A DNA stretch of 40,009 bases from Acidimicrobiia bacterium. GTDB taxonomy: Bacteria; Actinomycetota; Acidimicrobiia; IMCC26256; JAMXLJ01. Made by a program: the position numbers and the translations under genes. Below, in pieces: positions 5,313-24,893 of this stretch. A model generated the notes under the pieces. It was not told where the DNA came from. It did no database searches and saw nothing but the letters and a program-made list of their open reading frames with translations. Position 1 is the stretch's first letter; each line of letters begins with the position of its first letter. The stretch covers positions 1 through 40,009 of the forward strand of contig JAMXLJ010000012.1 of NCBI GenBank assembly GCA_024281095.1, in the 5' to 3' direction.

Positions 5313-5395
5313 CGCCTCCCATTGGCTTTCCCGCAGTCGTTGCATCGACGGATGGGCCGGGAACGCTTGAGGATGATCGAGGGATGATTCGTGCG

Positions 5396-6130: not shown

Positions 6131-6136
6131 CTCGTC

Positions 6137-6142
6137 AGGCTA
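6137..6142 (-). promoter_or_regulatory. -10 box TAGCCT for the CPBP gene (leaderless type)
   Basis: On the minus strand TAGCCT matches the TANNNT -10 consensus and ends six bases before the GTG at 6130, so the RNA would begin at or next to the start codon. No convincing -35 box is visible. The same hexamer precedes four other genes in this window at 6-9 bases. Confidence 0.6.
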
Positions 6143-6201
6143 CCGACGAGTGGTGCGCGACCGCGCCCGTGCCGCCACGTCGCCTCGACGCAGACGGCCC
6201 G

Positions 6202-6444: not shown

Positions 6445-6493
6445 GGACCATCGAAGCAGGTGGATGCCGGTCTCGGGAACAAACGTCGCGTAT

Positions 6494-6529
6494 CCGGTCG
6501 TTGCGACCGGTGGGGCGGAGCGTCCGCCC
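6494..6529. promoter_or_regulatory. Two tandem perfect hairpins in the DUF3499-ftsH divergent region
   Basis: CCGGTCG-TTG-CGACCGG (6494-6510) and GGGCGGA-GCG-TCCGCCC (6513-6529) are adjacent perfect 7-bp stems with 3-base loops, two bases apart. The interval 6445-6657 has no gene if the shorter DUF3499 start is right. It also holds a smaller inverted repeat, CTACC-ATGG-GGTAG, at 6583-6596. The role is unknown: operator, leader structure or chance in GC-rich DNA. Confidence 0.45.
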
Positions 6530-6657
6530 GCCGTGCCGGCGAGCAACCCTTGGCAGCGAAACGCCGATGTGCCTGCTCGGCCCTACCATGGGGTAGCAAC
6601 CGGCACGACCGTCGTTGCCCCAGGGGGCTTCGTCATCAAGGAGGCTGGGCCGCCCCG

Positions 6658-8679
6658 ATGAGCCGCCGTCCGAACGATCCGAGGCAGATGCGCCGCGACC
6701 CGCAGCGCCAGCCCGGGAACGCGCCCGCGCCCACACCGTGGCGTTGGGTGCTCTGGGTCGGCATCGTGCTCGTGATCGCCGTCCTCGCGTTCAACAGCCT
6801 CGGCACGAAGAGCACCTCCAAGCTCAGCCTGAAGTACAGCGACTTCGTCACCCAGGTCGACGCGGGCAACGTCGCGAACGTCACAGTCGATCCCGCGAAC
6901 GGTCACATCAGCGGCACGTTCAAGACGCCGGTCGACGGCAAGAGCGATTTCACCGCGTCGGGCCCGCAGAACTCGCTCCCAGACTCGGTCGTGAACACGA
7001 TCAAGGAGCACGGCGGCAGCGTCAAGTACTCGCACAAGGGGTCGAACATCATCGGTTCGATCCTCATCTATCTCCTGCCGATCTTCCTGATCATCGGCTT
7101 CCTCGTCTGGATGAACCGGAGGGCTCAGGGACAGATGGGCGCCATCATGAACATCGGGCGGAGCCGGGCGAAGGTCTACTCGACCGAGAAGCCGAAGACC
7201 ACGTTCCAGGACGTCGCCGGCTACGGGCCGGTCAAAGAGGAGATCGCCGAGGTCGTCGACTTCCTCAAGAACCCGGGCAAGTTCCGCGAGATCGGCGCCC
7301 GCATCCCGAAGGGTGTGCTCCTCGTCGGCCCGCCGGGAACCGGCAAGACGCTCATCGCTCGCGCGGTCGCGGGCGAGGCGGGCGTGCCGTTCGTCTCGGT
7401 GACCGGCTCCGATTTCATGGAGATGTTCGTCGGCGTCGGCGCCGCGCGCGTGCGCGACCTGTTCCAGACCGCGCGCAAGCAGGCCCCCGCGATCATCTTC
7501 GTCGACGAGGTCGACTCCATCGGCCGCAAGCGCGGCGCGGGCCTCGGCGGCGGTCACGACGAGCGGGAGCAGACGCTGAACCAGATGCTCGCCGAGATGG
7601 ACGGCTTCGAGGCGTCCGAGGGCATCGTGATGATGGCCGCCACCAACCGCCCCGACGTGCTCGATCCCGCGCTGCTTCGACCCGGGCGATTCGACCGCCA
7701 GATCATGGTGCCGCTGCCCACGCAGGAAGAGCGCGTCCAGATCCTCAAGGTGCACTTCCGCGACAAGCGGATCGGTCCCGACGTCGACGTCAACGTGATC
7801 GCACGCGGCACGCCCGGTATGAGCGGCGCGGATCTCGCGAACCTCGTCAACGAAGCGGCGCTGTTCGCGGTACGGCGGGGCAAGAAGGAGATCTACGCGG
7901 AGGACTTCGAGGCCGCCCGCGACCGCGTGCTCATGGGCCTCAAGCGCGAGTCGATGGCGCTCACCGAAGAGGAGAAGGAGGTGGTCGCGTACCACGAGGG
8001 CGGCCATGCGGTGCTGGCGTACGTGCTCGAGCACGCCGACCCCGTGCACAAGGTGACGATCCTTCCTACGGGCATGGCGCTCGGTGTCACGCAGCAGCTG
8101 CCCCTCGAGGAACGCCACATCTACAAGAAGGACTACATCACCGACTCGCTCGTCGTCCGCCTCGGTGGCCGCATCGCCGAGGAGCTCGTCTATGGCCATC
8201 TCTCGACCGGAGCGCAGAACGACCTCGTCGGCTGCACCGAGCTCGCGCGCAAGATGGTGCGCGAGTGGGGCATGTCGGAGCGCATCGGCCCCATGGCGTG
8301 GGGATCTCAGGGCGCGGTGTTCCTCGGCGAGGACCTCGTGCACACGCGCGACTACTCCGACGAGACCGCGCGCGTCATCGACGAAGAGGTAGAGCGGATC
8401 CTGCGCGAGGAAGAGGAACGGGCCCGCAAGGTGCTCGGCGAGCACCGCGCCGGTCTCGAAGCCGTCGCCCGCTCGCTGCTGGAGCACGAGACGCTCGACG
8501 GTGCCGAGGTCGGGCGCCTCGTCGACACCGCGATGGGGCACAAGGCCGGCGGCCCGCGCGTCACGACCACTGCGGAGGGCCAGGAGATCGAGGTTCCGCC
8601 GGCGCCCGACGAGGAACGCCTCGACGGCACCGGCGCCGACGTCGCCACGCCCGCCAGCGCCCCGTCCGCCGGAGACTAG
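6658..8679 (+). CDS. ftsH: ATP-dependent zinc metalloprotease FtsH
   Basis: A 673-residue membrane-anchored AAA+ protease that unfolds and degrades membrane and regulatory proteins. Two membrane helices (about 31-46 and 131-152) flank the periplasmic domain. Then come the Walker A GPPGTGKT at 224-231, pore loop MFVGVG near 256-261, Walker [10 protein letters not shown] (279-287), the second region of homology ([20 protein letters not shown]), and the zinc motif HEGGH at 446-450. The usual motif is HEAGH, a tolerated difference within HExxH. The C-terminal tail is acidic and Ala/Pro-rich. Start: the ATG at 6658 begins a typical basic N-terminus. AAGGAGG lies 13 bases upstream, rather far, so an in-frame ATG at 6688 cannot be excluded. 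It is monocistronic: divergent from DUF3499 and convergent with the next gene. Confidence 0.97.
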
Positions 8680-8707
8680 CGACGACCGAAGTCCGCGGGC
8701 GCGGCGC

Positions 8708-9160
8708 TCAGGAGAGCGCGCCCAGCCCGGGCTCGGGGCTCACGCCCGGCTCGCGCATCTCCGCGACGGCGGCCCACAAGTCGGTGGCGCTGACCGGCCC
8801 CACGAAGCCGTTGTGCACGATGCCCTCCGCGTCGGCGAGCACGACCATCGGCACGCCGGAGATCGCGTACCGCTGGTGAAGATCGGTGCGGCTCGAGTAC
8901 TCGACGTCTTCCACCGCGACGTCGGCCGACTCGAGCACCGCGACCTTCGGCGCCATCCGCCTGCAGCTGTCGCACGTCGACGACGAGAACAACACGACGA
9001 GCCACGGCGCGTCGGGACGAGCGAAGTCGGCGCGGTCGAGCTGGCGCGGCATCGGGTACGCGTCGCGCGGTGGCGCGGCGGGACGGCGGCGGTTCAGCCA
9101 CCATGCGACCCCGAACGCCGCGATCAGCAGCGCGACGGCCACGATCAAGCGGACGGCCAT
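8708..9160 (-). CDS. Membrane-anchored thioredoxin-fold protein
   Basis: A 150-residue protein with an N-terminal membrane anchor (residues about 4-22) and a thioredoxin domain facing outward. The redox motif is CDSC at 63-66 (WLVVLFSSSTCDSC), and the cis-Pro loop reads SGVPMVV. Such proteins act in extracytoplasmic thiol-disulfide exchange or cytochrome maturation; no partner gene is visible here. The ATG at 9160 was chosen because it directly precedes the hydrophobic anchor and has GGTGGGA upstream; a longer form would add 18 residues. A possible -10 (TACGCT, 9186-9191, minus strand) lies 25 bases upstream. It follows the DUF5719 gene by 70 bases and is convergent with ftsH. Confidence 0.85.
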   Translation of the reverse strand: MAVRLIVAVALLIAAFGVAWWLNRRRPAAPPRDAYPMPRQLDRADFARPDAPWLVVLFSSSTCDSCRRMAPKVAVLESADVAVEDVEYSSRTDLHQRYAISGVPMVVLADAEGIVHNGFVGPVSATDLWAAVAEMREPGVSPEPGLGALS

Positions 9161-9230
9161 CGTTCCCACCCTGACACCGACGACGAGCGTACCGACGAAC
9201 GCCTGACGTGGCACCGCATCGCGCCCGTGC

Positions 9231-10652
9231 TCACGACGCGCCGGGAATGCCGAGGGCCGCGCTCATCGTCTGCGGGTTGGAGTCGACCCGTTCGACGGCG
9301 ACCGGTTCGTCCGTGGTCACGAGCACGCCGGCACCGGCCGGTACGTTGCGCTCCGACAGGTTGACGAGCGCCCGCGCGCCCGGCGGTATCGACACCGACT
9401 GATCGCCGATGATCGGCGGCGTCGCACCCGAAAGGATCGCGTCGACCCGCAGTGTGACCGGGCGCGGGGCCGGGTTCGCCGCGACGATCACGTCGGTCGA
9501 GGGAACGCTCGAGCGCGCCGACGCGAAGGCCCACCGGCGGCTCAACACCGGGGAGGCGGTAACGGTGGCCGACGCCGTCGCCGTGAACACGCTCTGCGCC
9601 GCGACGACCGGCTTGTCGGAATGGGCGCGCACCCAGAACCCGGTGTTGGCCGGGACGCGCGACATGAGGTCGATGCTCACGACCGAATGGTCGGGCACCG
9701 GCACGGATTGCGGTGTCAGCTTCGCTTCTCCGTCGAGGACGACGTCGACGACGACGGTCGCCTGACTGTCGCCCGGGTTGGCCACGACGAGCGAATCCGT
9801 GCCGCCGACGACGACGCCGGCCGGCAGATACCAGTCGACGGCGGTTGCCGGTGCACCGGACGCGAGGGTCATGCCGAACCGGCCATTGCTGCCGTCGAAG
9901 AACAGTGACTGCTCGGCGACGACGCGTCCGATGCGTGTGTGGACCTGCGCGGCGACGATCCCCTGCCGCGGGACGTTGTCGTGCACCGAGACGTTGACCT
10001 TCGTGTGCCTGGGCACCACGAGCCCCTGCAAGGCCTGTGGCGCCTGCGGGCCGGTGTCGGTGAGGAACGTCACGTCGACGATCGCGTCGTCGGGGAACGG
10101 ATCGAAGAGCGAGAGCCACTGCTGCGCGCCTTTCACGGTGGTGCCGGCAGGCAGGTACCAGGTGCTCGCAGCCTGCCGCGCGCACGGTCCCATCGCGATG
10201 CTCACGCCGTTGCGGATCTCGTGCTCGACGACGACAGGTCCCCCGATGCTCTCGACGACGACGCCGGGATTCGGTGTGGCCACGACGTCGGCGACATGAA
10301 CCGCAACCCGTGTGAGCCCGGGAACATCGACCCGGCGTGGCACCGTGGTGTTCGCGTCCCCCATCACGATCACATCGGCCCGCACGATGTGCGAGGCGAC
10401 GTTGGTGACGAAGACGGTCTCGTCGCCGTTGCCACCGGGCGCTGCCGAACCCGCCGCGCAATACCACGCACTCGAGCGTGCATCGGCGGGCGGTATCGAC
10501 GCCGCGACCGAAGCGAAGGGACGCGCGGTGCCTGTTGTGGAAGCGCGCCCGCTTCCGGTCGTGTCCAACACGATTGCCGCGATCAGCGCGACCGCGACGA
10601 ACAGCACGATCGGGAAGCGCCGCGTACGTTCGGCGGGAAGCGCCGACGTCAT
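9231..10652 (-). CDS. DUF5719 family membrane-anchored extracellular protein
   Basis: A 473-residue protein with a short cytoplasmic tail, one transmembrane segment (about 13-29), and an all-beta extracellular part. That part is built from several similar modules carrying phrases such as WYLPAGTTV and WYLPAGVVV, each followed by 'VANPGDSQATVVVDV'-like strands. This matches the actinobacterial DUF5719 family, whose genes stand beside a large GT2 glycosyltransferase and the manB cluster. The ATG overlaps the TGA of the upstream glycosyltransferase in an ATGA, so the two are translationally coupled and probably work together. A structural or accessory role in export or assembly of a surface glycan is my inference; no catalytic residues are recognisable. 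Confidence 0.82.
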   Translation of the reverse strand: MTSALPAERTRRFPIVLFVAVALIAAIVLDTTGSGRASTTGTARPFASVAASIPPADARSSAWYCAAGSAAPGGNGDETVFVTNVASHIVRADVIVMGDANTTVPRRVDVPGLTRVAVHVADVVATPNPGVVVESIGGPVVVEHEIRNGVSIAMGPCARQAASTWYLPAGTTVKGAQQWLSLFDPFPDDAIVDVTFLTDTGPQAPQALQGLVVPRHTKVNVSVHDNVPRQGIVAAQVHTRIGRVVAEQSLFFDGSNGRFGMTLASGAPATAVDWYLPAGVVVGGTDSLVVANPGDSQATVVVDVVLDGEAKLTPQSVPVPDHSVVSIDLMSRVPANTGFWVRAHSDKPVVAAQSVFTATASATVTASPVLSRRWAFASARSSVPSTDVIVAANPAPRPVTLRVDAILSGATPPIIGDQSVSIPPGARALVNLSERNVPAGAGVLVTTDEPVAVERVDSNPQTMSAALGIPGAS

Positions 10653-13600
10653 GTGAGCACCGGTTCGGCCAGCTCCGGCTCGGGAGCGACGACCACCGTG
10701 GTGCGGCCGGCGCGGCGTCGTCGTGTGCGCCACCACACCGCGACAAGCGCCGCCCACACCAGCAGCTGCACGAGGAGCTGCACGTCACGCGCGAGTTGTC
10801 CGGCGAAATGGAGCCGGACCCGCGCCGGTGCGGTGACGGCCCAGCCGTTCGCCCACCCGAAGGTCCGGAGGTGTGGCAACGCACGACCACCCGCGCTCGC
10901 GTGCCAGCGCGCGTCGTACGCCGTCGAGAGCAACGCGGCGCCTGGTACCGCCGGCGCACCCGTCAACGGCCGCGCGCCCGCGAAGTCGGCCGCGAGCCCT
11001 GCCCCGACGGCGTCCGTCGAACGTAGCGAGCTCGGGTCGGCGGGAACGTTGGCCCGTATGGGCAACCAGGCGGTGTTCTCGTAGAGCCCGTAGCTGCCGT
11101 CCGTGCGCAGCCGGCGCAGATCGAGCTGCGCGTCGAGCGTGTCGTGCAAACCCGGCGGCGCGGCCATCGAACGCTGTCCGGGTGCCGGCCCGTCGACGAG
11201 CGCGATGTACCGCACCCCCATCGGGGCAAGGAGATGACCGATGCGGTTCGTACGGTCGCGGCCGGCGAGGACGAGCTGAGCACCGATCAGCTTCGTCGGG
11301 CCCGGCGCCGGCCGCCACAGGCTCCGAGCGTCGACGACCGCGTTGTCGAAGGTGACGTACCCGATGCCGCGCGCGACGAGCGGATCTCCCGGAAGTGCCC
11401 GCGGGTCGCCCACGATCAGCAGGCGCGAGTCGCCGGACGACTGGTCGGACGTCCACGACAGTGTCTGACCCCAGTCGCCCGACGGAGCGCGCCACGAGCC
11501 GTGCGTGGTGTCGGCGAGGAAGCCGAGGAGCGGCAACGCGAGGCCCACCGCGCCCACGACGCTCGCGAGCTGACGCCAACCGAAGTGGAACGTCCGGAGA
11601 TCGTGTGAGAAGGCCGTGACCGCGATACCGACTGCGAGCGACAGGCCGATGGCCGCGAGCACCAGCGCCGCCTCGGGCGGAGGGACGCGCGTCCCGGTTG
11701 CGAAACGCGACGGGACCCATACCGCGGCGAAGCCGAAGAGGGCGAGCATCCACGCGCGTGCCGCCCACATGGCCCGCTCCCCCGTCGCGACGAGCAATGC
11801 CAGTGCCGCCGCCGCGAGCAAACCCCAACCGGCCCAGCCCGCACCGGCGGGCCCGGTGTGGAAGCGCAGCACGTCGGAGAGTCCGAGGTGGAGGTGCAGC
11901 ACCATCCCCCATGCCGACGCGTCAGGCGTCGCGAGCTGCGACAAGGACCACGGCACGAGCAAGACGACCGCGCCCACGCACGCGGCGAGCGCGGCCGCCA
12001 TGGTGCGCATCGCAACGCGCGCGCCGCCGGCAAGCGGCGCCGCCAGCACGAAGCTGGCCGCGACGAGCAGCGGAAAGGCGAGCGCGACAGGCAGGAACGC
12101 CGTCACCACGGCAACGAGCACGGCGGCGCGCAGCATGGACCTCACGAACATCCGTCGATCGCGCTGCGGACCCGCCAGACCGATGAGCGACGACACGATG
12201 AACGGCGCGAGCGCGTAGAGGACCAGTGGCCCGAGCCGCCCGGTGCCGAGATCGTTGCGGGCCACGGGGTTCACCGCGTACGCCGCACCGGCGGCGAACG
12301 TGGCGACCGGCCACGGCGTGAACCGTCGGGCGAGTCGAGCGGCACCCCATGCGCCGACGGGGAGCGCGGCGACGATCATCAGCGTGCGCGCCATGGAGGT
12401 CGCGCCGAGCAGCACGGCGCCGAGGCCGGCCATGGCCGCGAACGCGGGCGGCGCAGGCGCCGCCGATCCGAGGCCCACGGGACGCCACGCATCGCCATAG
12501 GCGCGCGTGAGACCACCGACGCCGGGCCACGGCAGGAACGAGCCGATTGCCGGGACGGTCTTCGTGATGAAGCTGCGCGACCCGATGATGACGAGGAAGA
12601 GAAACACCAACACGCCGACTGTGAGCGGTTGGCGCATCCCGCTGCGCGCCGCGCCGACGACGTTGCGGCTCGTCTCACCCAGGCTGCGGATCGCGTCCTC
12701 GGCGGAGCCGTGGCCGGCCGTGATCCGCCGCAGCTGCGCGCTGCCGTGCAGCTGCAACAGTCGCACGTCGGAATCGGCGACGGTACGCGTCGCCTGCACG
12801 GCCCGACGCGCGCGCACGACGTCGGGGATGTGCCGGAAGTTCCACCACCATGCGCCCAGTGCTGCACGCGCGTGTGCCGGCCGCGCGGACACGAGGTACA
12901 CGATCGCTTCGCCGATGCTGAACACCAGCGCGAGCGGGACGATCCACGCCAAGTTCAGAAGTGAGTACGACTTGAGGACGCTACGCACCCGATGGCGGGC
13001 CCGGCGTCGTACCGCGGTGGCGTCGCGGCCGTTGCGCTCGGCGCGCGAGCCGACAGTGGCCCGATGCCGGACCCGTGCGTCCGGCGCGACCATGACCCGC
13101 GCACCGACGAGCAGAGCCCGCCAGCACAGGTCGAGATCCTCGCCGTCCGGGGAGGTCGCCGGGTCGAACCCGCCGAGCTCGTTGAAGAGGTCCGCTCGCA
13201 CGAGCATCGCGGCGCTGGAGACGTAGAACACGTCGCGCACGGTGTCGTGCTGCTCCTGGTCCAGCTCACCCGGCTCGACGCCCGAGAACGGCACTCCGAA
13301 CCGGTCGACGAGCAGGCCGACCTCGAGCAGCACCTCGGGGTTGTCGTAGCCGACGAGCTTCGGGCCGACGATGCCGGCGTTGGAGCGGTACGCCTCCTCG
13401 ACGAGCACCCGGATCGCGGACGGCTCCACCATGACGTCGTCGTGGCACAGCAGGAGGAAGGTGGCGCCTTCGACGGAGTCCAGCGCCTCGTTCGCGGCCG
13501 CGGCGAAGCCGACGTTCTCGGACAGACGGCGGACGAAGGCGTGCGGGGCGACCGCAGCCACCCTGGGCGTGGGATCCTCGGCCGACCCGGCGTCGAGCAC

Positions 13601-13780
13601 GAAGATCGCCAGAGATGGGTAGTCGGAGGCCGTGAGACTGCTGAGCGTCTCTTCCAGCCACGGACCGGGGTCATGGGTGACGACGACGGCCACCACGGGC
13701 GGAGGGACGGGAACCGGCTCGACGGGCCCAGTGGGCGCCAGCAGTGCGGCTCCGTCGGCGGTGGGGTGTTCGCTCGACAT
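10649..13780 (-). CDS. Giant GT2 glycosyltransferase fused to a polytopic membrane domain
   Basis: A 1043-residue protein. Residues about 28-290 are a GT-A fold family 2 glycosyltransferase: VVAVVVTHDPGPWLEETLSSL, LLLCHDDV (HDD at 113-115) and the acceptor-side GEDLDLCWRA. After a Tyr/Leu-rich helix pair come many transmembrane helices (about 420-830) and a C-terminal extracellular part with a last helix before an Arg-rich tail. Proteins of this architecture occur in most actinobacteria next to DUF5719 genes and are thought to build a surface glycan; donor and acceptor are unknown. Start: the ATG at 13780 fits the family N-terminus. It has no clear Shine-Dalgarno, but a TAAGCT box lies 14 bases upstream. 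The 3' end overlaps the DUF5719 start by four bases. Confidence 0.88.
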   Translation of the reverse strand: MSSEHPTADGAALLAPTGPVEPVPVPPPVVAVVVTHDPGPWLEETLSSLTASDYPSLAIFVLDAGSAEDPTPRVAAVAPHAFVRRLSENVGFAAAANEALDSVEGATFLLLCHDDVMVEPSAIRVLVEEAYRSNAGIVGPKLVGYDNPEVLLEVGLLVDRFGVPFSGVEPGELDQEQHDTVRDVFYVSSAAMLVRADLFNELGGFDPATSPDGEDLDLCWRALLVGARVMVAPDARVRHRATVGSRAERNGRDATAVRRRARHRVRSVLKSYSLLNLAWIVPLALVFSIGEAIVYLVSARPAHARAALGAWWWNFRHIPDVVRARRAVQATRTVADSDVRLLQLHGSAQLRRITAGHGSAEDAIRSLGETSRNVVGAARSGMRQPLTVGVLVFLFLVIIGSRSFITKTVPAIGSFLPWPGVGGLTRAYGDAWRPVGLGSAAPAPPAFAAMAGLGAVLLGATSMARTLMIVAALPVGAWGAARLARRFTPWPVATFAAGAAYAVNPVARNDLGTGRLGPLVLYALAPFIVSSLIGLAGPQRDRRMFVRSMLRAAVLVAVVTAFLPVALAFPLLVAASFVLAAPLAGGARVAMRTMAAALAACVGAVVLLVPWSLSQLATPDASAWGMVLHLHLGLSDVLRFHTGPAGAGWAGWGLLAAAALALLVATGERAMWAARAWMLALFGFAAVWVPSRFATGTRVPPPEAALVLAAIGLSLAVGIAVTAFSHDLRTFHFGWRQLASVVGAVGLALPLLGFLADTTHGSWRAPSGDWGQTLSWTSDQSSGDSRLLIVGDPRALPGDPLVARGIGYVTFDNAVVDARSLWRPAPGPTKLIGAQLVLAGRDRTNRIGHLLAPMGVRYIALVDGPAPGQRSMAAPPGLHDTLDAQLDLRRLRTDGSYGLYENTAWLPIRANVPADPSSLRSTDAVGAGLAADFAGARPLTGAPAVPGAALLSTAYDARWHASAGGRALPHLRTFGWANGWAVTAPARVRLHFAGQLARDVQLLVQLLVWAALVAVWWRTRRRRAGRTTVVVAPEPELAEPVLT

Positions 13781-13811
13781 CGGGTCGGCCGGGAAGCTTA
13801 CATGCGCGCTG

Positions 13812-13872
13812 CTCGTGACCACTGTCACGAGTGCTTGCAAAAGTTTATGATCCGCGTTACGGTGGCAAGCAC
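13812..13872 (+). promoter_or_regulatory. Promoter with two perfect inverted repeats (putative operators)
   Basis: TTGCAA (13835-13840), a 17-base spacer and TACGGT (13858-13863) form the best sigma-70-like promoter in the window, reading towards the gene at 13932. Just upstream is a perfect inverted repeat CTCGTGAC-CACT-GTCACGAG (13812-13831). A second perfect repeat, GTGCTTGC (13831-13838) with GCAAGCAC (13865-13872), brackets the promoter core. The layout suggests control by one or two dimeric DNA-binding proteins. The remainder of 13781-13931 shows no gene. Confidence 0.6.
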
Positions 13873-13931
13873 ACACCTGCCGAGCACTGGCCCGGGCACA
13901 CGTATGCCGGGCCGCGAACAGGAAGGTCCCG

Positions 13932-14309
13932 ATGGACATCCGCAAGTCGCTGCAGGACGCCGCCTACGTCACCGTGGGCTTCGGCGTCATCACGTTCCAG
14001 CAGGCACAGGTGCGCCGCCGCGAAGCCACGGCCAAAGTGGACGCCCAGCGCCGCGAGGCCCGCAAGTTCGTCGAGGCGCAGGCGCGTGACGCCCGAGACC
14101 GCGCCACGACCGTCCGCTCCGAGGTGCTCCACCGCGTCGAGCCGCTCGTGGGGCAGCTCCAGCACCGCGTCGAGCCGTTCGTGGTGCAGCTGCAGGACCG
14201 GGTCGAACCGCTCGTGGGGCAGCTGCAGGCCGTGCCCGACCGCCTCGCGCAGATCGCGCAGGAGAGCGCGAGCCGGTTCCAGCGGGGCCAGCGCGCCGCG
14301 ACCAACTGA
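13932..14309 (+). CDS. Small helical protein with three 11-residue repeats (HbhA/apolipoprotein-like)
   Basis: A 125-residue, almost wholly helical protein of unknown function. The N-terminus has a short hydrophobic patch (AYVTVGFGVITF, 11-22). Then comes a charged region rich in Arg, Glu, Gln and Ala (24-64), and three tandem 11-mers: HRVEPLVGQLQ (67-77), HRVEPFVVQLQ (78-88) and DRVEPLVGQLQ (89-99). Eleven-residue amphipathic repeats are seen in lipid- or surface-binding helices such as apolipoproteins and LEA proteins, and loosely recall mycobacterial HbhA; binding to membrane or polymer is inference. GGAAGG lies five bases before the ATG. It has its own promoter and a strong terminator, so it is a single-gene unit, in the slot where a whiB gene stands in relatives. 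Confidence 0.82.
   Translation: MDIRKSLQDAAYVTVGFGVITFQQAQVRRREATAKVDAQRREARKFVEAQARDARDRATTVRSEVLHRVEPLVGQLQHRVEPFVVQLQDRVEPLVGQLQAVPDRLAQIAQESASRFQRGQRAATN
14130..14228 (+). repeat. Three 33-nt in-frame repeats
   Basis: Three consecutive 33-base units encode the 11-residue repeats of the helical protein. Copies 1 and 3 encode HRVEPLVGQLQ and DRVEPLVGQLQ; copy 2 differs at two internal residues. Unit length and phase keep the amphipathic 11-mer register. Confidence 0.8.
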
Positions 14310-14363
14310 CGGTCCAGTCCGCGTTCTCGCGCCGGCCTGTCCCCCCGGGACCGACGCGAACCA

Positions 14364-14409
14364 GATCGACGCCGGAGTCACGATGAGGTGACCCGGCGTC
14401 GATCTTTTT
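14364..14409 (+). terminator. Rho-independent terminator
   Basis: A 12-bp perfect stem (GATCGACGCCGG, 14364-14375, with CCGGCGTCGATC, 14393-14404) is extended past one bulged A by a further 5 bp (GTCAC with GTGAC). It is closed by a 6-base loop and followed by five T (14405-14409). It lies 55 bases after the stop of the 11-mer-repeat gene and ahead of cofD. This is the clearest terminator in the window. Confidence 0.9.
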
Positions 14410-14422
14410 GGTCGCGCTCGCT

Positions 14423-14445
14423 GCGGCCCGGGATACCCGGGCCGC
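14423..14445. repeat. Perfect 10-bp hairpin next to the terminator
   Basis: GCGGCCCGGG (14423-14432), loop ATA, and CCCGGGCCGC (14436-14445) form an exceptionally stable stem 14 bases past the T-tract. The preceding word CTCGCTGCG also occurs in the repeats near 883, so it may belong to the same dispersed family. The rest of 14310-14493 has no gene. Confidence 0.6.
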
Positions 14446-14480
14446 GGGCGCTCGCCGCTCCCGCTCATAGATGCGCCAGT

Positions 14481-14486
14481 TACGCT
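14481..14486 (+). promoter_or_regulatory. -10 box TACGCT for cofD (leaderless type)
   Basis: TACGCT fits TANNNT and ends seven bases before the ATG at 14494, so transcription would begin at or beside the start codon. There is no convincing Shine-Dalgarno in the short gap. Confidence 0.5.
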
Positions 14487-14493
14487 GGCCGGG

Positions 14494-15432
14494 ATGTTGG
14501 TGGCACTTGCGGGTGGTGTGGGTGCGGCACGATTTCTCCGGGGTCTCGTCCGCATCGTGCCGCGCGAGGACGTGGTCGTCGTCGTGAACACGGCGGACGA
14601 CGACATCTTCCACGGCCTCCACGTCAGCCCCGACCTCGACAGCGTCACGTACACGCTCGCGGGTGCGGAACACCCGGAGCAGGGCTGGGGGCTCGCCGGT
14701 GAGACCTTTGCGGCGATGGAGGCAATGGAGCGCTACGGCGCGCCGACGTGGTTCCGCCTCGGCGATCGCGACCTCGCGACACACCTGTACCGCACCGAGC
14801 TGCTCCGCAAGGGGGCGACGCTGAGCGAGGCCACCGAGCGAATCACGCGCGCGTGGGGCGTCGGGAGCCGGCTGCTCCCGATGTCCGACGACCCCGTCTC
14901 GACCCGCATCACCGTCCGGACCGCCGCGGGCGGCACCACAGAGCTGCGCATGCAGGAGTGGTTCGTGCGGGAACGGTCCGGGCCGCCGGTCGTCGCAGTG
15001 CGTTTCGACGGTGCCGACGAGGCCCGGCCCGCGCCCGGTGTCCTCGAGGCCCTCGACCAGGCCGACACCGTCTTGATCTGCCCGTCGAACCCGGTCATCT
15101 CGATCGGACCGATCCTCGCCGTCGGCGGCGTGCGCGAAACGCTGCGTCGCCGCCGGGCCCGGGTCGTCGCCGTGAGCCCGATCATCGGGGGCGCGCCGGT
15201 GAAGGGCCCGGCGGACCGGCTGATGGGCCCGCTCGGCATCGAGGTTTCCTGCGTCGGTGTTGCCGCGACCTACGCGGACGTGTGCGGGACGCTGGTCATC
15301 GACGCCGGCGATGCCGCCCGCGCACCCGAAGTGGAGGCGCTCGGTGTGCGCGCCGTCGTGGCCGACACGCTGATGACCGACGCACGCGTCGCCGCGGCAC
15401 TCGCGCGTCATACGCTCGACGCCGTCGCCTGA
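14494..15432 (+). CDS. cofD: CofD/FbiA family 2-phospho-L-lactate (or PEP) transferase of F420 biosynthesis
   Basis: A 312-residue protein of the CofD family. It transfers a phospho-lactyl or enolpyruvyl group from its GDP- or GTP-derived donor to the deazaflavin Fo, giving F420-0 or its dehydro form. Recognisable blocks are LAGGVGAARFLRGL (5-18), VVVNTADDDIFHGLHVSPDLD, WFRLGDRDLATHLYRTELL, LICPSNPVISIGPIL and VAVSPIIGGAPVKGPADRLM. In actinobacteria the donor is generally derived from phosphoenolpyruvate (FbiA type), but sequence alone does not settle it. It is followed after ten bases by cofE, as fbiA-fbiB in mycobacteria. Length is normal. FbiC and CofC are not in this window. Confidence 0.95.
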   Translation: MLVALAGGVGAARFLRGLVRIVPREDVVVVVNTADDDIFHGLHVSPDLDSVTYTLAGAEHPEQGWGLAGETFAAMEAMERYGAPTWFRLGDRDLATHLYRTELLRKGATLSEATERITRAWGVGSRLLPMSDDPVSTRITVRTAAGGTTELRMQEWFVRERSGPPVVAVRFDGADEARPAPGVLEALDQADTVLICPSNPVISIGPILAVGGVRETLRRRRARVVAVSPIIGGAPVKGPADRLMGPLGIEVSCVGVAATYADVCGTLVIDAGDAARAPEVEALGVRAVVADTLMTDARVAAALARHTLDAVA

Positions 15433-15442
15433 GCCGTCCCCC

Positions 15443-16153
15443 GTGCCCGCGCTCACAATCATCCCGATCGACGGGATCCCGGAGGTTCGACCGGGCGACT
15501 CGCTCGCGGACCTCGTCGTCGACGCAGCCGGCGCCCAGAGGACGCCGTTCCAGGACCACGACTGCGTGGTGGTCACGCAGAAGGTGGTCTCGAAGGCGGA
15601 GAACCGCCTCGTACCGCTCGATCCCGACGACGCCGCGGCCCGGCGCGAGCTCGTCGAGTCGGAATCGGTGCGCGTCCTGCGGCGTCGGGGCGATTTGATC
15701 ATCAGCGAGACCCGTCACGGCTTCGTGTGCGCGAACGCGGGCGTCGACCTCTCCAACGTCGACGCCGGTTCGGCGGCGCTGCTGCCGCTCGACCCCGACC
15801 GGTCCGCCCGCCGCATCCGTGACATCGTGCGCGCCCGCACCGGCGCGTCGGTCGGCGTGATCGTGTCCGACACGTTCGGGCGGGCGTGGCGCACGGGTCT
15901 CACCGACGTGGCAATCGGTGTCGCCGGCATCGCCGCGGTGGTCGACCTGCGCGGCGAGCTCGATGCGAACGGGCGCGAGCTGCACGTCACGGAGGTGGCC
16001 GTCGCGGACGAGATCGCCGGTGCGGCCGAACTCGTGATGGGCAAGGCCAGCGGCCTCGCGGCCGCAATCGTGCGCGGGCTCGACGTCGCCTGGTTCCGCG
16101 ACGCGTCGGCGCGGGATCTGGTGCGCCCGACCGCCGAGGACCTCTTTCGCTAG
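15443..16153 (+). CDS. cofE: Coenzyme F420-0:L-glutamate ligase, stand-alone CofE form
   Basis: A 236-residue protein that adds glutamate residues to F420-0, using GTP in characterised enzymes. Typical stretches are IIPIDGIPEVRPGDSLADL, DCVVVTQKVVSKAE, RHGFVCANAGVDLSNVD, GVIVSDTFGRAWRTGLTDVAIGVAG and ELVMGKASGLAAAIVRGLD. Mycobacterial FbiB is a fusion of this domain with a C-terminal nitroreductase-like domain of about 200 residues that reduces dehydro-F420-0. Here the protein stops after the ligase domain, so that reductase must be encoded elsewhere if it exists. The start is a GTG ten bases after the cofD stop. The downstream neighbour is convergent. Confidence 0.94.
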   Translation: MPALTIIPIDGIPEVRPGDSLADLVVDAAGAQRTPFQDHDCVVVTQKVVSKAENRLVPLDPDDAAARRELVESESVRVLRRRGDLIISETRHGFVCANAGVDLSNVDAGSAALLPLDPDRSARRIRDIVRARTGASVGVIVSDTFGRAWRTGLTDVAIGVAGIAAVVDLRGELDANGRELHVTEVAVADEIAGAAELVMGKASGLAAAIVRGLDVAWFRDASARDLVRPTAEDLFR

Positions 16154-16228
16154 AGGCGGGATCCGGGTCGTCCGGTCGACACTCGCCGTTGCCGCCGACA
16201 GCCGGTTACACGGCGGGATAGCACGTCC

Positions 16229-17176
16229 TCAACGGCGCGACTTGTCGCGGAAGAAGTCGAGCGTGCGCTGCACGCCGTCGTCGAGGGTCGTCCACGGCTT
16301 CCAGCCGAGGTGGATGCCCGCTCTCGTGGGGTCCAGCGCGGAGCGCTGCAGCTCGCCGGCGCGCGCCGGCGCGTAATTCGGCGGCTGCTTGTATCCGGTG
16401 AGACGGGCCATCGTGTCGTAGAGCTGTTGCACGCTCGTCTCGACGCCCGTACCCACGTTCAGGATCAGGCCGCCGCCCTTGTCCGACGCGCGCACGAACG
16501 CGTCGACGACGTCGTCGACGAACACAAAGTCGCGCGTCTGCTTGCCGTCACCGAAGATCGTCGGACGCTCCTTCTCGAGGAGCAGGCCGGCGAAGATCGA
16601 CACGACCCCGGCCTCGCCGTGCGGGTCCTGGCGCGGGCCGTAGACGTTGGCCAGCGCGCACACCGTGTACTCGAGGCCGTGGATCTCGCGGTAGTAAAAG
16701 AGGTAGTCGCCGGCGGCCTTCTTCGACACGCCGTACGGCGACTCCGGCCGCTGCGAATGTCCCTCCTTGACGGGGATCTCCTCGGGCGTGCCGTACAGCG
16801 TGCCACCGGACCCCGCGAACACGACCTTGCGCGACTTGGCCGCAACCGCGCCCTGGAACACGTTCAGCGAGCCGATGATGTTCACCTCGGCGTCGAAGGC
16901 GGGCTGCGCGACCGACACGCGCACGTCGGCCTGCGCGGCGAGATGGAACACCACTTCGGGCTTGCGCATCTCCATGAGCTCGGTGATCGCCGGTGAGCGG
17001 ATGTCGAGGCGGTGGAACGAGAAGCGGCGGCTGCGGTCGGCGCGGGCGTCGGCGAGATTGGCCAGGTTGCCGGTGGAGAGGTCGTCGACCACGTCGACCT
17101 CGTGACCCTCGGCGAGCAACCGGTCGACGAGGGTCGAGCCGATGAACCCTGCACCTCCGGTGACGAGCGTCCTCAT
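16229..17176 (-). CDS. NAD-dependent epimerase/dehydratase (UDP-glucose 4-epimerase-like)
   Basis: A 315-residue extended short-chain dehydrogenase. The NAD loop TGGAGFIGS is at 6-14, and the catalytic YxxxK is YGVSK at 148-152. DDLSTGNLANL and NVYGPRQDPHGEAGVVSIF are typical of GalE-like nucleotide-sugar epimerases. The substrate is not determined by sequence; UDP-glucose/galactose or a UDP-uronic or GDP-hexose sugar are all possible. The ATG at 17176 has AGAGGAA at good distance; an upstream ATG adds five residues. It is downstream of the nucleotidylyltransferase gene on the same strand, 94 bases away, possibly with its own promoter. Confidence 0.88.
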   Translation of the reverse strand: MRTLVTGGAGFIGSTLVDRLLAEGHEVDVVDDLSTGNLANLADARADRSRRFSFHRLDIRSPAITELMEMRKPEVVFHLAAQADVRVSVAQPAFDAEVNIIGSLNVFQGAVAAKSRKVVFAGSGGTLYGTPEEIPVKEGHSQRPESPYGVSKKAAGDYLFYYREIHGLEYTVCALANVYGPRQDPHGEAGVVSIFAGLLLEKERPTIFGDGKQTRDFVFVDDVVDAFVRASDKGGGLILNVGTGVETSVQQLYDTMARLTGYKQPPNYAPARAGELQRSALDPTRAGIHLGWKPWTTLDDGVQRTLDFFRDKSRR

Positions 17177-17216
17177 CGCGGTTCCTCTCAAGCCTCTCGC
17201 TCACGGGCGAACGCGG

Positions 17217-17222
17217 ACCCTA
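17217..17222 (-). promoter_or_regulatory. Possible -10 box TAGGGT upstream of the epimerase gene
   Basis: TAGGGT on the minus strand, 40 bases before the ATG at 17176, fits TANNNT and would give a short leader containing the AGAGGAA ribosome-binding site. No good -35 is seen. The rest of 17177-17270 is non-coding. Confidence 0.35.
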
Positions 17223-17270
17223 CCCGCCGGGCGGAGGCATCCCCGCCCGTGGCCCGCGCGCGTGAAAACG

Positions 17271-18269
17271 TCAGCCGGCGCACTCGAGGCGGGCGTCGGC
17301 GGCGACGACGACGTCGACCGCCTTCTCGTCGGCCGCGACCCGCGCCCCCGCGAGAACGACCGATCGCAGGACGCGGGCGCCGGACTCGACCGTCGCGCCC
17401 GGCCCGATCACCGATTCCGCGACGTCCGCGCCGGCCCCGATGCGTGCTCCGGTACCGAGGAGAACGGCCGCGCGCAGGCGGGCGTCGGACGCGATGTCGA
17501 CGTCGCCCTGCACCCAGATGCCGCTGTCGTGCTCCCGCGCCCCGGGTGCGGGCGGCAGGCCGAGCTTCCCGCCGAGGACGTCGGCCTGGGCCTCGGCGTA
17601 CTTGCGCGGCGTCCCGATGTCGAGCCAGTACGCGTCACTGTGCTGGGCGAACAGCCGTCGCGGGGAGTCGAGCATGCGTGGAAACGTCTCGCGCTCGATC
17701 GAGACGGTGAGGCGAGGCGGGATGCGGCGAAGCACACTCGGCTCGAGCACGTACGTGCCCGCGTTGATCCAGTTGGTCGGCGCGCGCCCGGGCGGCGGCT
17801 TCTCCACGAACGCGACGACCTCACCGTCTTCACGCGTCGGCACGACGCCGAACGCGGACGGGTCCTCCACGCGCGTGAGCGCGATCGTCGCCTCCGCTGC
17901 GCGCTCGTCGTGGAAGCGCACGAGGCCGGTGACGTCCAGGTCTGTGAGGACGTCGCCGTTGCACACGACGACCCGCTCGTCGATCCCCTCGGCCGCGAAG
18001 CCGATCCCGCCCGCGGTCCCGAGCGGCTCCTTCTCGATGACCCAGCGGATGCGCATGTCACCGAACCGGCCCGAAGCGAAGTGGGCTTCGAACGCCTCGG
18101 GCAGGTACCCGAGCGACAGCACGGCTTCGTCGATCCCGTGCCGGCCCAGCCAGGTCAGCTGGCGCTCCAGGAAGGGCACGTTCGCGATCGGCAGGAGCGG
18201 TTTCGGCGTGTGGTACGTGAGCGGCCGGAGCCGCGTGCCCTCCCCGCCGACGAGAACGATCGCTTTCAC
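17271..18269 (-). CDS. Mannose-1-phosphate guanylyltransferase-like sugar nucleotidylyltransferase
   Basis: A 332-residue enzyme with an N-terminal nucleotidyltransferase domain and a C-terminal left-handed beta-helix of hexapeptides. The N-terminal domain carries GGEGTR at 8-13, TPKPLLPI, EKEPLGTAGGI, CNGDVLTDLD and INAGTYVLEP. The C-terminal part includes GTGARIGAGADV and ESVIGPGATVESGARV. This architecture fits GDP-mannose pyrophosphorylases of the mycobacterial Rv3264c type, which turn mannose-1-P and GTP into GDP-mannose, and the neighbouring phosphomannomutase would supply the substrate. A glucose-1-P thymidylyl- or uridylyl-transferase role is not excluded, and no separate RmlA is present here. 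The GTG start overlaps the TGA of the preceding gene in GTGA, so translation is coupled. Confidence 0.87.
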   Translation of the reverse strand: MKAIVLVGGEGTRLRPLTYHTPKPLLPIANVPFLERQLTWLGRHGIDEAVLSLGYLPEAFEAHFASGRFGDMRIRWVIEKEPLGTAGGIGFAAEGIDERVVVCNGDVLTDLDVTGLVRFHDERAAEATIALTRVEDPSAFGVVPTREDGEVVAFVEKPPPGRAPTNWINAGTYVLEPSVLRRIPPRLTVSIERETFPRMLDSPRRLFAQHSDAYWLDIGTPRKYAEAQADVLGGKLGLPPAPGAREHDSGIWVQGDVDIASDARLRAAVLLGTGARIGAGADVAESVIGPGATVESGARVLRSVVLAGARVAADEKAVDVVVAADARLECAG

Positions 18270-19051
18270 GGCTTCGCGGTCGTGGAGGACGGCGCCGCCG
18301 TTGTCGGGGTCGCGGCCGTGGACGGCGTCGACTGTGCCGGAGCGGTCGTGGGCGTCTGGCTCACTCCCGAGTTCGGCGTCGAGCTGTTGAGCGCCTGGGC
18401 CAGCGCCGCCGTCGACGGCGGGTCGCCGAACGACGTCGCGTTCTTCCCGGCCGGCTCGAAAGCGAGCACGATGCGGTCTCCGTTGTGCGGGGCGTACCCG
18501 CCGACGTTGCCGGAGTGCAGTTTGCCGTTGACGGCCCAGGTGAGCGTGCCCTTGGCCCCGGGTCCGCCGTTCGCGCCCGGGCACGTGTCGCCGTTGCTCT
18601 CCTTCACGCCCTTGTCGTACGCGAAGCTCGTCGACGACACGCTCCAGCCGTTGTAGGTGAAGTAGCGCCCCACGGTCGCGTGCGAGCCGACGTCGTCGGA
18701 GGCCTCGGGCTCGAAGTGGATCAGACCGTCGGCGTGGGTGTGGAGGCCGGCGTACGTGTCGGTGCCGTGCCGCACGATCGTGCCGTTCGAGTCGCGCGGC
18801 GTCTCCGGCGGGTTCGGCAGCCAGTTTCCACAGACGTTCACGCCGAACGCGGCGTGCCAGTGGTCACCGATCTTCAGGCCTCCGGAGGAATCGTTGGCGT
18901 TCTTGGCGAGCACGATGCCGATGACTCCGAGCAGCACGATGGCGACCACCCCCATGGTCCAGCCGGTGCTGCCGCTGCGGCGCGGCGCGCGGCGGGCACG
19001 CGCGCGGGCCTTGCCGCGGTTGTACTTGCCCCGTGTCGACGACTTGGCCAT
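18266..19051 (-). CDS. Unknown single-pass membrane protein with conserved-looking His motifs
   Basis: A 261-residue protein of unknown function. A very basic cytoplasmic N-terminus (1-30) precedes one membrane helix (33-49). The outer domain carries DHWHAAF at 63-69, two Cys (74 and 157), and GLHTHADGLIHFEP at 102-115. A Thr/Ser/Pro/Ala-rich tail (about 212-261) looks like a wall-spanning spacer. The clustered His (64, 66, 104, 106, 112) could bind a metal or form an active site; this is inference. I recall similar actinobacterial 'HWHA' hypothetical proteins but no characterised member. It overlaps the nucleotidylyltransferase gene by four bases and follows the WbbL-like gene by seven. A TAGCCT box nine bases upstream of the ATG may give an internal promoter. 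Confidence 0.85.
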   Translation of the reverse strand: MAKSSTRGKYNRGKARARARRAPRRSGSTGWTMGVVAIVLLGVIGIVLAKNANDSSGGLKIGDHWHAAFGVNVCGNWLPNPPETPRDSNGTIVRHGTDTYAGLHTHADGLIHFEPEASDDVGSHATVGRYFTYNGWSVSSTSFAYDKGVKESNGDTCPGANGGPGAKGTLTWAVNGKLHSGNVGGYAPHNGDRIVLAFEPAGKNATSFGDPPSTAALAQALNSSTPNSGVSQTPTTAPAQSTPSTAATPTTAAPSSTTAKP

Positions 19052-19058
19052 GACCCGG

Positions 19059-19994
19059 TCAGGCTAGTCGTCGCGTTCCGTTGTTCCGGGCGCGCCTCAC
19101 TACCACCTCCCGGGCCGCCAGCAGGGCGCCGCGGGCGGCGAGCAGCACCGCCGCCGGGCCGAGCAGCACCCGCTGCGGACCGTGCCACCGCTTCGACGCG
19201 AAGCGCAGCGCGGAGCGGTGGTGGGCCACGATCGACTGGTACGGGTGCGCCGACCGGCTCACCCCTTCCGCGTGCACGACGGATCCCCCCGGTTCGTACG
19301 CGACGCGCCACCCGGCCCGGCGCAGCCGCCAGCACAGGTCGACGTCTTCCATGAACAGGAAGAAGCCTTCGTCCCATCCGCCGATCTGGTCGAGCGCGCC
19401 GCGCCGCAACCAGATCGCCGCGCCGGAGACCCATTCCGCGTCTCTCGGCCGGCCCGGATCGGCGTCGAGCTGGCGGTAGTGGCGCGTGAAGCGGTTGCCG
19501 GGCAGGAACGGGCCGAGCACTGCATGCCCCACGGCGCTGGTGACCGACGGATGTGTCCGCGCCGACGGATACGTCTCGCCCCCTTCGTCGCGGATGTGCG
19601 GGCCGATCGCGCCGAGGCGCTCATCGGCCTGGAACCGGGTGAGCATCGCGGCGCCGGTTCCGGGCTCGACCTCCACGTCGGGGTTGAGCACGGCGATGAC
19701 GCCGGCGGACGTTGCCGCGATGCCGAGGTTGGCGCCGCGCGCGTAGCCGAGGTTTGCACCGGGCTCGACGACGACGACGTCGGGAAGGTCTCGCCGCAGC
19801 GACTCGATCGAGTCGTCGACCGACGCGTTGTCGACGACGACCACTTCCGGCGGTGATCCCGCGCTGGTATCGGCGAGCAACGATCGGACGCAGCTCACGA
19901 GCCGGGAACCGGCGTTGAAATTGACCACGACGGCGGACCACGCCGCCGCGGGCTCCGTCGCGGCCGGCGTCGCCGACGCCGACGGGTAGGTCAC
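19059..19994 (-). CDS. GT2 glycosyltransferase, WbbL (rhamnosyltransferase)-like
   Basis: A 311-residue family 2 glycosyltransferase. It has VVVNFN at 22-27, the nucleotide-binding VVVVDNAS (51-58), GANLGYARGANLG, a LNPDVEVEP acidic motif, and GGWDEGFFLFMEDVDLCWRLRRAGW. These are typical of rhamnosyl- and galactofuranosyl-transferases such as mycobacterial WbbL, which adds rhamnose to the lipid-linked linkage unit; the nearby rmlB and rmlD make that plausible. The GTG at 19994 was chosen because it overlaps the upstream TGA as GTGA, the coupling pattern seen repeatedly in this cluster; alternative GTG starts lie at 20009 and 20024. A C-terminal hydrophobic and Arg-rich stretch may touch the membrane. 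Confidence 0.85.
   Translation of the reverse strand: MTYPSASATPAATEPAAAWSAVVVNFNAGSRLVSCVRSLLADTSAGSPPEVVVVDNASVDDSIESLRRDLPDVVVVEPGANLGYARGANLGIAATSAGVIAVLNPDVEVEPGTGAAMLTRFQADERLGAIGPHIRDEGGETYPSARTHPSVTSAVGHAVLGPFLPGNRFTRHYRQLDADPGRPRDAEWVSGAAIWLRRGALDQIGGWDEGFFLFMEDVDLCWRLRRAGWRVAYEPGGSVVHAEGVSRSAHPYQSIVAHHRSALRFASKRWHGPQRVLLGPAAVLLAARGALLAAREVVVRRARNNGTRRLA
19061..19066 (-). promoter_or_regulatory. -10 box TAGCCT for the His-motif membrane protein gene
   Basis: TAGCCT lies within the last codons of the WbbL-like gene and nine bases before the ATG at 19051. It suggests an internal near-leaderless start site, in addition to read-through from the operon. Confidence 0.45.
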
Positions 19995-20719
19995 TGCGTG
20001 AACCGGCACTTCGCGAGGACCCACAAAGCGAGTGCACCGTCGCGCCACGTGAACGACTTGCCCTCGTCGCGATCACGACCGGTGTAGCTGATCGGCACCT
20101 CGTAGATGCGCTCGCGGCGACGCAGCACGCGTGCCGTCACCTCAGGCTCGAAGTCGAATCCGTCGGCGGTGAGCGCGAGATCGTCGAGCAGCTGACGATC
20201 GAAGAGCTTGTAGCCGGTCTCCAGATCGGAAAGGGTCGTGTTGTAGAGCACGTTCGCCGCCGCGACGAGCAGGCGGTTCCCGAGCCATGACGACAAAGGC
20301 ATCGCGCGGCGCTCGCCGGTGAAGCGCGACCCGTACACGACGCGGGCGCGGCCCTTCAGGAGCGGCGCGAGGAGCTTCGGCCATTCGTCCGGGTCGTACT
20401 CGAGGTCGGCGTCCTGGATGAGCACGGCGTCACCGGTGGCGTTCTGCAACCCGGTCCGGATCGCCGCGCCCTTGCCTCGGTTGCGGTCGTGCTTCACGAC
20501 GTGCACGGTGCTGTCGGCGAGTTGCGGCAACAGCGCCCGCGTGCCGTCGGTGCTGCCGTCGTCGACCAACACGACTTCGAGGTCGATCGGCAGCTCGACG
20601 TTGCGCATCCGCCGGACGATCTCGGGCAGTGTGTTGCGCTCGTTGTAGACCGGCACGATCACGGACAGCCGCTTGTAGCCCGGGACGGCTCCGGGCGCGG
20701 GTCCTGCGGGCTCAGCCAC
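19991..20719 (-). CDS. DPM1-like GT2 (polyprenyl-phosphate glycosyltransferase family)
   Basis: A 242-residue soluble GT2 enzyme resembling dolichol/polyprenyl-phosphate mannosyltransferases. It has [60 protein letters not shown] and a C-terminal [23 protein letters not shown] block. It would load a sugar from a nucleotide donor (GDP-mannose or UDP-glucose are typical) onto polyprenyl phosphate for use outside the membrane. It lacks the two C-terminal helices of the GtrB type. The GTG at 20719 has AGGAG seven bases upstream; a GTG two codons earlier is too close to it. It overlaps the decarboxylase gene by eight bases and the next gene by four. Confidence 0.88.
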
Positions 20720-21653
20720 GCTCACGCTCCTGCTGATACCACGCGCTGGTGCGCGCGAGACCTTCCCGCAGGCTCACCGCGGGCGACCAGCCGAGCAGCT
20801 CCCGCGCGCGGGTGATGTCGGGCCGCCGGCGGACCGGATCGTCCGTGGGCAGGGGCTCGTACACGATCTCCGAGGAAGAACCGGTGACGTCGAGCACGGT
20901 GTCGGCGAGCTCCTTCACCGTGAACTCGTCGGGGTTTCCGATGTTCACCGGCCCCGCGTGGTCGGACTCGAGCAGCGCGAGGATGCCGCGCACTTCGTCG
21001 TCGACGTAGCAGAAGGAACGGGTCTGACTGCCGTCGCCGTAGACCGTCAACGGCTTGCCGTCCAGGGCCTGCACGAGGAAGTTCGACACGACGCGGCCGT
21101 CGCCGGGCCGTAGGCCGGGGCCATACGTGTTGAAGATCCGCACCACGCCGACGTTCATGTCGTAGACCCGGCGGTATGCGAACGTGAGCGACTCTGCGAA
21201 GCGCTTCGACTCGTCGTAGACGCTGCGGGGGCCAATCGGATTGACGTTGCCCCAGTAGGACTCGGCTTGCGGATGTTCGAGCGGGTCGCCGTACACCTCG
21301 CTCGTCGAGGCGAGGATGAAGCGGGCCGCGTGCGCCTTCGCGAGATCAAGCGCGTGGCGCGTGCCGTTCGAGCCCACGTCGAGCGTGGCGAGAGGATGCT
21401 CGAGGTAGTCGGGTGGGCTCGCCGGACTGGCGAAGTGCAACACCGCGTCGACCGGCCCGTCGACGGGCACGCCACGCGAGACGTCGTGTTCGAGGAACTC
21501 GACGCGGCCGTCGGGAAGGAGGTCGTCGAGATTCGACCGCCTGCCGGTCATCAGATTGTCGACGGCCACGACGTCCCAACCGCGCCCAACGAGCGCACGA
21601 CACAGGTGCGAGCCGATGAAGCCGGCTCCGCCGGTGATGACCGCGCGCCTCAT
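20712..21653 (-). CDS. uxs: UDP-glucuronate decarboxylase (UDP-xylose synthase family)
   Basis: A 313-residue extended SDR enzyme very close in sequence style to UDP-xylose synthases. It carries [62 protein letters not shown], the catalytic YDESK and [21 protein letters not shown]. The enzyme oxidises and decarboxylates UDP-glucuronate to UDP-xylose or its 4-keto form. The gene encoding its substrate producer, UDP-glucose dehydrogenase, lies immediately upstream, and the stop and start overlap by one base (TGATG), a strong sign of coupled function. Length is normal for the bacterial short form. Confidence 0.92.
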
Positions 21654-24881: not shown

Positions 24882-24893
24882 GTGTCACTCCCC

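Follow-up and report, generated by a model that had tools for sequence, protein, structure and literature searches.

A predicted promoter upstream of a small helical protein gene in an Acidimicrobiia bacterium appears to carry an operator of the kind bound by the lipid-droplet regulator MLDSR, and we consider it likely, with real room for doubt, that this is the regulated promoter of a protein that probably coats droplets, in which an MLDSR-type operator is combined with a CRP-type site and served by a regulator encoded in trans. The window (the whole stretch of DNA analyzed, 40,009 nucleotides) lies on contig C12 of a 4.39-Mb draft genome, G000. Within it, 151 bp of intergenic DNA (13781-13931) lie between a divergent family 2 glycosyltransferase gene (10649..13780, minus strand) and the target gene (13932..14309, plus strand), which encodes 125 residues comprising a conserved N-terminus and 11-residue repeats and is a candidate lipid-droplet coat of the MLDS/HbhA type. 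Read from the sequence, the predicted elements are a promoter, an MLDSR (Rv0474)-type operator lying over the -35 element and spacer, an upstream CRP-type site and an extra half-site, and regulators of both types are encoded in the genome. We take the named-type regulator to be Rv0474, which is consistent with the mycobacterial loci.

With a 711-base query, similar DNA turned up in 31 of 61 related genomes, one of them the query's own. The regions between the glycosyltransferase and small protein genes of these relatives share a conserved core, GTGCTTGCAAtAGTTAGCA, followed by about 8 bp, a TAnnnT and then often GnAGCAC. Searched with at most one mismatch, the core pattern was present in 31/61 genomes, nearly always as a single copy (the reversed control gave 3 hits). 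The 37 related promoters referred to below are those among the 61 genomes that showed the site by DNA query, pattern or sequence model, and do not constitute a count of losses. The corresponding element of the window is the predicted main operator, a 20-bp dyad, GTGCTTGCAAAAGTTTATGA (13831..13850, plus strand), with its left half-site intact and its right half degenerate in the window's lineage. The gene that follows the site was not identified as this small protein in four genomes (G012, G023, G049 and G013). G013 also gave no glycosyltransferase match beside the site; its locus (L042, about 1480-1520) has two cores in tandem, TGCTTGTAGTGGTTAGCG and then TGCTTGCTATGGTTAGCA, before a different helical protein. 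Among other candidate elements, TTAGCACTC, present in some relatives, was compared with what we take to be the CIRCE motif of HrcA and was rejected on reading the alignment because its arms are in the wrong order. The RamB/ScfR, PhaR and KstR2 sites, which we had presumed to be possible leads, were dropped once the element was found before MLDSR-type genes.

In a survey of 396 genomes spread over the phylum, 17 carried the exact core (control, 0), and in 11 of these it stands in front of an XRE regulator, the fetched stretch also giving a match of HbhA type. It was also upstream of an XRE regulator at 80/80 named loci (from Nocardia, Rhodococcus, Mycobacterium, Gordonia, Pseudonocardia and allies), these being the best 80 of 580 confirmed loci ranked by similarity to one Nocardia-type query and therefore an uneven sample. 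In the named genomes the element thus stands ahead of the regulator gene, an HbhA-type gene lying farther downstream: an HbhA/MLDS-type gene was found by HMM in the fetched stretch of 77 of the 80 (a count that supersedes the 17/80 of a first search), the misses being L175, L177 and L200, the last a stretch shortened by a contig end. A study of Rhodococcus jostii describes MLDSR, the regulator of the lipid-droplet protein MLDS, as an XRE protein on lipid droplets that binds two motifs in the mldsr-mlds promoter, and gives the MLDSR box as GNT(T/A)GCTNNTGCTANC (PMC5504291). Scored against this published box, the core matches 10-12 of 12 positions in all 80 named sites (11 in R. opacus and 12 at one Nocardia carnea locus, with R. 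jostii outside the 80 loci scored) and from 8 to 11 of 12 in every one of the 37 related sites. For a random 16-mer of 70% GC the probability of reaching a score of 10 is 0.00005 and that of reaching 8, the score of the window's own site, is 0.005. As far as the literature found goes, what was known before was the MLDSR box from one Rhodococcus promoter: a search from which most subscription papers were beyond reach found no description of the element outside Rhodococcus, and a text search for the literal core string returned no paper. At L182 (Smaragdicoccus niigatensis) a second strong core, GTGCTTGCAAGTGTTAGCG (3156, minus strand), lies away from the regulator promoter and is a possible second target.

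The promoter itself is read as TTGCAA (13835..13840, plus strand), which lies within the operator and is conserved in relatives, and TACGGT (13858..13863, plus strand) at a spacer of 17. The original prediction called this the strongest -35/-10 pair in the window. By E. coli consensus it is not, the sole pair reported by a scan of 5000-24900 being CTGTCA-18-TATGAT, but conservation picks TTGCAA-17-TACGGT, and we adopt it because the TAnnnT spacing is conserved over the 37 promoters rather than on consensus. TAnnnT stands at spacer 17 in 32 of the 37 related promoters and at no other spacer outside 16-18 when 8 to 35 were tested; among the named MLDSR promoters it is at spacer 17 in 73/80, and the TACGGT hexamer itself occurs at this spacing in 12/80. 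A housekeeping-sigma layout, that is, the -35 element plus TAnnnT at a spacer of 16-18, is present in 34/37 related and 76/80 named promoters. TATGAT (13846-13851) was rejected as the -10 element because it is not conserved, the relatives reading TTAGCA there. The transcription start is predicted by assuming a position 7 bases after the -10 element.

The promoter is bracketed by an exact 8-bp inverted repeat, GTGCTTGC (13831-13838) and GCAAGCAC (13865-13872), 100% complementary across a 26-nt gap. It had been said to enclose the promoter exactly, and it does bracket it, but the left arm overlaps the -35 element by four bases and the right arm starts two bases past the -10 element. AGCA at the right-arm position occurs in 26/37 related promoters (4/37 in an adjoining control stretch) and in 2/80 named promoters, on which grounds we assign the right arm as a putative third half-site particular to this group. 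That half-site (13865..13872, no strand assigned) lies at the predicted transcription start, some 33 bp or about three helical turns from the first half-site on the left. By this reading of the alignment the bracketing repeat is real but is composed of parts of two predicted sites, one good operator half-site and the extra half-site. The proposal of a regulated promoter for the small 11-mer-repeat protein stands in that core, spacing and position are conserved in 37 promoters and recur before MLDSR-type regulator genes elsewhere, but its main operator is the 20-bp dyad over the -35 element and spacer rather than the bracketing repeat. For the small helical protein gene, control by the element is supported by the predicted orientation and distance of the latter. 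The suggested control of the divergent glycosyltransferase is not: the gene is a neighbor in related genomes, but the element is oriented and spaced in a way that suits the small gene instead, the distance to the first aligned glycosyltransferase codon varies from 50 to 259 bases among the related promoters, and at the named loci it is the regulator gene and its HbhA-type companion that follow the element.

Directly upstream lies a second perfect repeat, CTCGTGAC (13812-13819) and GTCACGAG (13824-13831), also 8 bp and 100% complementary, with a 4-nt gap. It was described as abutting the bracketing repeat; it is directly upstream, but base 13831 is common to both. The full palindrome, CTCGTGAC-CACT-GTCACGAG (13812..13831, no strand assigned), contains a CRP-type core, GTGAC-N4-GTCAC (13815-13828). 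Allowing one mismatch in its 10 positions, this core was found in 15/37 related promoters, 10 of which have it exactly, whereas shuffles gave 0.14 on average and 1 at most; among the named MLDSR promoters it was found in 5/80 (exact in 0/80). A register of -16 is favored, 8 of the 15 cores lying in the window's register and 7 at other distances. The longer CGTGAC-N4-GTCACG, searched for across the genome along the lines proposed, was found at two places in it. Two CRP-type proteins having both domains are encoded in G000, and one has the recognition helix GASRERVNKAL, a helix type that reads GTGA. The predicted core centers lie at about -48.5 from the predicted start in the window and at -48.5 to -74.5 elsewhere, and -48.5 is not a textbook class I or class II CRP position. 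Relative to the CRP palindrome TGTGAN6TCACA, as given in PMC4117774, the window palindrome fits the GTGA-N6-TCAC core but has C/G rather than T/A as outer bases. These outer bases, together with the fixed register in which the palindrome abuts the operator in 8/15 promoters, would suit a site for another factor, or an additional place of contact for the XRE regulator itself. We consider this unlikely, although it is one of the two best-surviving alternatives, given the fit of the core to the CRP palindrome, the CRP-type regulators encoded in the genome and the seven promoters in which cores at other distances move independently of the operator. In Pseudonocardia, CRP-type cores (9/10) lie 30-32 bases before the core at L195, L198, L203 and L191, a similar distance that suggests an independent CRP input in that genus.

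The small protein family has the N-terminus D-[VIL]-R-K-T-x-x-D-A-x-Y-I-x-V-G-x-G-V-L-G-F-Q-Q-A-Q-V-R-R-R-E, followed by variable amphipathic repeats. Full-length homology to HbhA was rejected. The hhalign probability was 85, but reversed profiles gave 25.7 and 24.6 versus 36.1, and in hmmsearch reversed decoys equaled the real sequences. A comparison with HbhA restricted to the N-terminus gave p = 0.017, and both the small protein and the HbhA of L069 matched a Pfam apolipoprotein family weakly, with scores under the curated cut-off. When the first 34 residues were compared with the regulator-linked protein of L072, which was picked after its sequence had been seen, 26/29 gave p <= 0.05 (reversed control, 1/29); the values were 24/29 for R. 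opacus L166 (reversed control, 6/29) and 5/29 for L186, the sole mycobacterial sequence tried (reversed, 1/29). What withstood the decoy controls was the resemblance of the N-terminus to L072 and L166 alone. Searches of G000 gave nine WS/DGAT (wax-ester/triacylglycerol synthase) matches in eight open frames and no match to PhaC_N (PHA synthase). We favor a droplet coat over a PHA-granule phasin because of the WS/DGAT matches and the lack of a PhaC_N match, the latter being the ground on which the phasin was rejected.

The small protein is therefore probably a lipid-droplet coat, as judged from its sequence and genomic setting. A role in the nucleoid or envelope instead is the other of the two best-surviving alternatives, and also seems unlikely to us. 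In its favor, M. tuberculosis HbhA is reported as a nucleoid-associated protein and surface adhesin (PMC10665949, PMC6176652), and MLDS binds DNA through a lysine-rich tail. The last 50 residues of the window's protein, however, have no lysine. Moreover, its N-terminus resembles those of MLDSR-linked proteins, the N-terminus of MLDS being reported as the droplet-targeting part (PMC5504291), and the genome has many WS/DGAT domains. HbhA is itself described in mycobacterial lipid inclusions (PMC6176652). An odd variant of the droplet-coat candidate was seen at L033 (G059), where the gene after the core (from about 1568) consists of short tandem repeats (LDPRKLDLQKLDVTKIDF..., PKFDMPKFDLP...) and its protein ends in a stretch resembling the usual N-terminal helix. 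Downstream of the small gene in the window (14494-16153) are cofD and a gene for an F420 gamma-glutamyl ligase, and G027 and G018 likewise have cofD-like genes there, a synteny that ties the small gene to F420 genes.

The genome encodes one MLDSR-type XRE protein, on contig C56 (20011-20349, minus strand), with 55% identity to a mycobacterial-type query (E 1.3e-31). Regulator and target are on different contigs, and the arrangement is not a single autoregulated operon. At least one copy of an MLDSR-type regulator was found in 56/61 genomes. The five without a detected regulator (G002, G005, G007, G029 and G047) were the same when the window's own copy was used as query against the 61 genomes, and three of them (G005, G007 and G029) have the site. 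These absences are weak counter-evidence because the stated completeness of the drafts predicts about 7 misses. Most of the regulator copies read share the helix region SNPYLSQIERG with the named type. A scan of 46 regulator loci gave no site at the threshold used in 44, the exceptions being L103 of G058 (strong) and L106 (weak). In G058, from another order of the same class, a palindromic site and the regulator occur together with an HbhA-like protein whose tail is rich in lysine and alanine. The retention of an intact unit in that genome suggests that the split between regulator and target is derived. The gene after the regulator in G000 is presumably an MshA-like glycosyltransferase. Directly upstream of the regulator (L256, 1862-2377, minus strand) is a gene for a 171-residue protein containing ETEVSYVRRLAQARID, which fits E-x3-S-x2-R-x3-Q-x3-D, a pattern we take to be the cyclic-di-GMP signature of RsiG-type anti-sigma factors. 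Genes similar to it precede the regulator in some relatives and could tie the regulator region to cyclic-di-GMP signaling.

The identity of the operator was examined with a matrix built solely from 35 distinct named sites and applied to 35 of the 37 related promoters plus 700 shuffled loci. Thirty of the 35 promoters outscored every shuffled locus; the other five, with weak scores, were those of G000, G019, G008, G005 and G057, and in G001 the best place was over the -10 element and third half-site rather than the main site. In the 40-kb window the 13831 site is the top place, at 8.5 versus 0.85 for the next, a score with p = 0.02 per locus. A sequence model made from the same 35 named sites and run on the 61 whole genomes gave a best hit of E <= 0.02 in 28 genomes, which in 27 of the 28 was the glycosyltransferase-flanked locus (the exception was G006), and gave no match at E <= 1 in G000, where the right operator half reads GTTTATGA rather than GTTAGCAC. 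These sequence comparisons make a strong case for the predicted identity of the element in the order as a whole but a weak one for the copy in the window, and the degenerate right half in the window's own lineage is the main weakness of the case.

That degeneracy, the unlinked position of a regulator whose own promoter, in this order, carries no strong site, and the three genomes with a site and no detected regulator would be accommodated if the core were the operator of another regulator with the same sequence preference, the order's MLDSR-type protein having other targets. We regard this as quite improbable, since the same 18-20 bp sequence stands before the regulator gene itself in 80/80 named loci, the regulator is kept in 56/61 related genomes with the helix region of the named type in most copies read, and there is nearly one strong site per genome.

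Both 8-bp repeats exist and are exact, yet palindromes by themselves are weak evidence, and the case is carried by cross-genome conservation. In the whole window there are 95 perfect 8-bp inverted repeats with loops of 3-30, versus a shuffle mean of 83, so such repeats are common and near chance; two within the 151-bp intergenic region, found in 49/2000 shuffles, are rarer than that. That these palindromes are chance products of a GC-rich window, RNA hairpins or a terminator is very hard to credit, as they are conserved across many genomes, both sit on the predicted start or ahead of it, an Rfam search of 13700-14000 gave no match and a site scan found no terminator-like site at the palindromes. 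The original prediction had foreseen, as the outcome adverse to it, palindromes lost while the promoter was kept. In the relatives the left arm is nearly invariant, and the right-arm AGCA (26/37) and the CRP-type core at 9/10 or better (15/37) also persist. A tRNA search of the window found none, and a phage origin was rejected when a search gave no match.

For the MLDSR-type reading, we propose that the XRE regulator made from the other contig would bind the operator as a dimer and compete with the sigma factor for the -35 element, giving repression. Droplets would then draw the regulator away and relieve repression, much as reported for R. jostii, where MLDSR represses when the protein-to-DNA ratio is high and activates when it is low, and where droplets may pull it from its promoter (PMC5504291). 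A CRP-family protein at about -48.5 could tune the promoter to carbon or energy state. The ancestral regulator-target operon would have split in this order, with the operator staying with the coat gene. More tentatively, and with somewhat less than even confidence, we suggest that a droplet-occupancy feedback circuit, in which a sensor of the MLDSR type represses the gene for a droplet coat, predates the divergence of the actinobacterial classes and has here been rewired into a trans, nearly single-target form with a CRP input and a third half-site. If so, supply of the coat protein would follow both droplet surface and carbon state. In the promoters compared, the operator-promoter stands before small uncharacterized helical proteins in another actinobacterial order, conserved while regulator and target separated, and its predicted regulator has nearly one strong site per genome. 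It would also put a name to a likely lipid-inclusion coat protein in bacteria for which a limited literature search found none described.

Three known systems invite comparison. Actinobacterial CRP-type sites share with the upstream palindrome the GTGA-N6-TCAC core and a CRP-type protein in the genome, and the window differs from them in its outer bases and in the center near -48.5. The Rv0474-hbhA system of Mycobacterium tuberculosis is similar in regulator type, in its HbhA-type target, of which the window's protein is a candidate counterpart, and in the same core at mycobacterial loci; we claim no adhesin role for the window's protein, and for Rv0474 a copper response and control of rpoB are reported (PMC10961391). 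The third is the MLDSR-MLDS operon promoter of R. jostii RHA1 (ro02105, mlds). Here, unlike there, regulator and target are unlinked and the regulator gene in the order lacks a strong site, a start-site half-site and an upstream CRP-type palindrome have been added, and the operator of the window's lineage has a degenerate right half. What the two have in common is an operator core that scores 10-12/12 in the named genera, with the -35/17/-10 layout there, an XRE regulator of the same type and an amphipathic target with a similar N-terminus.
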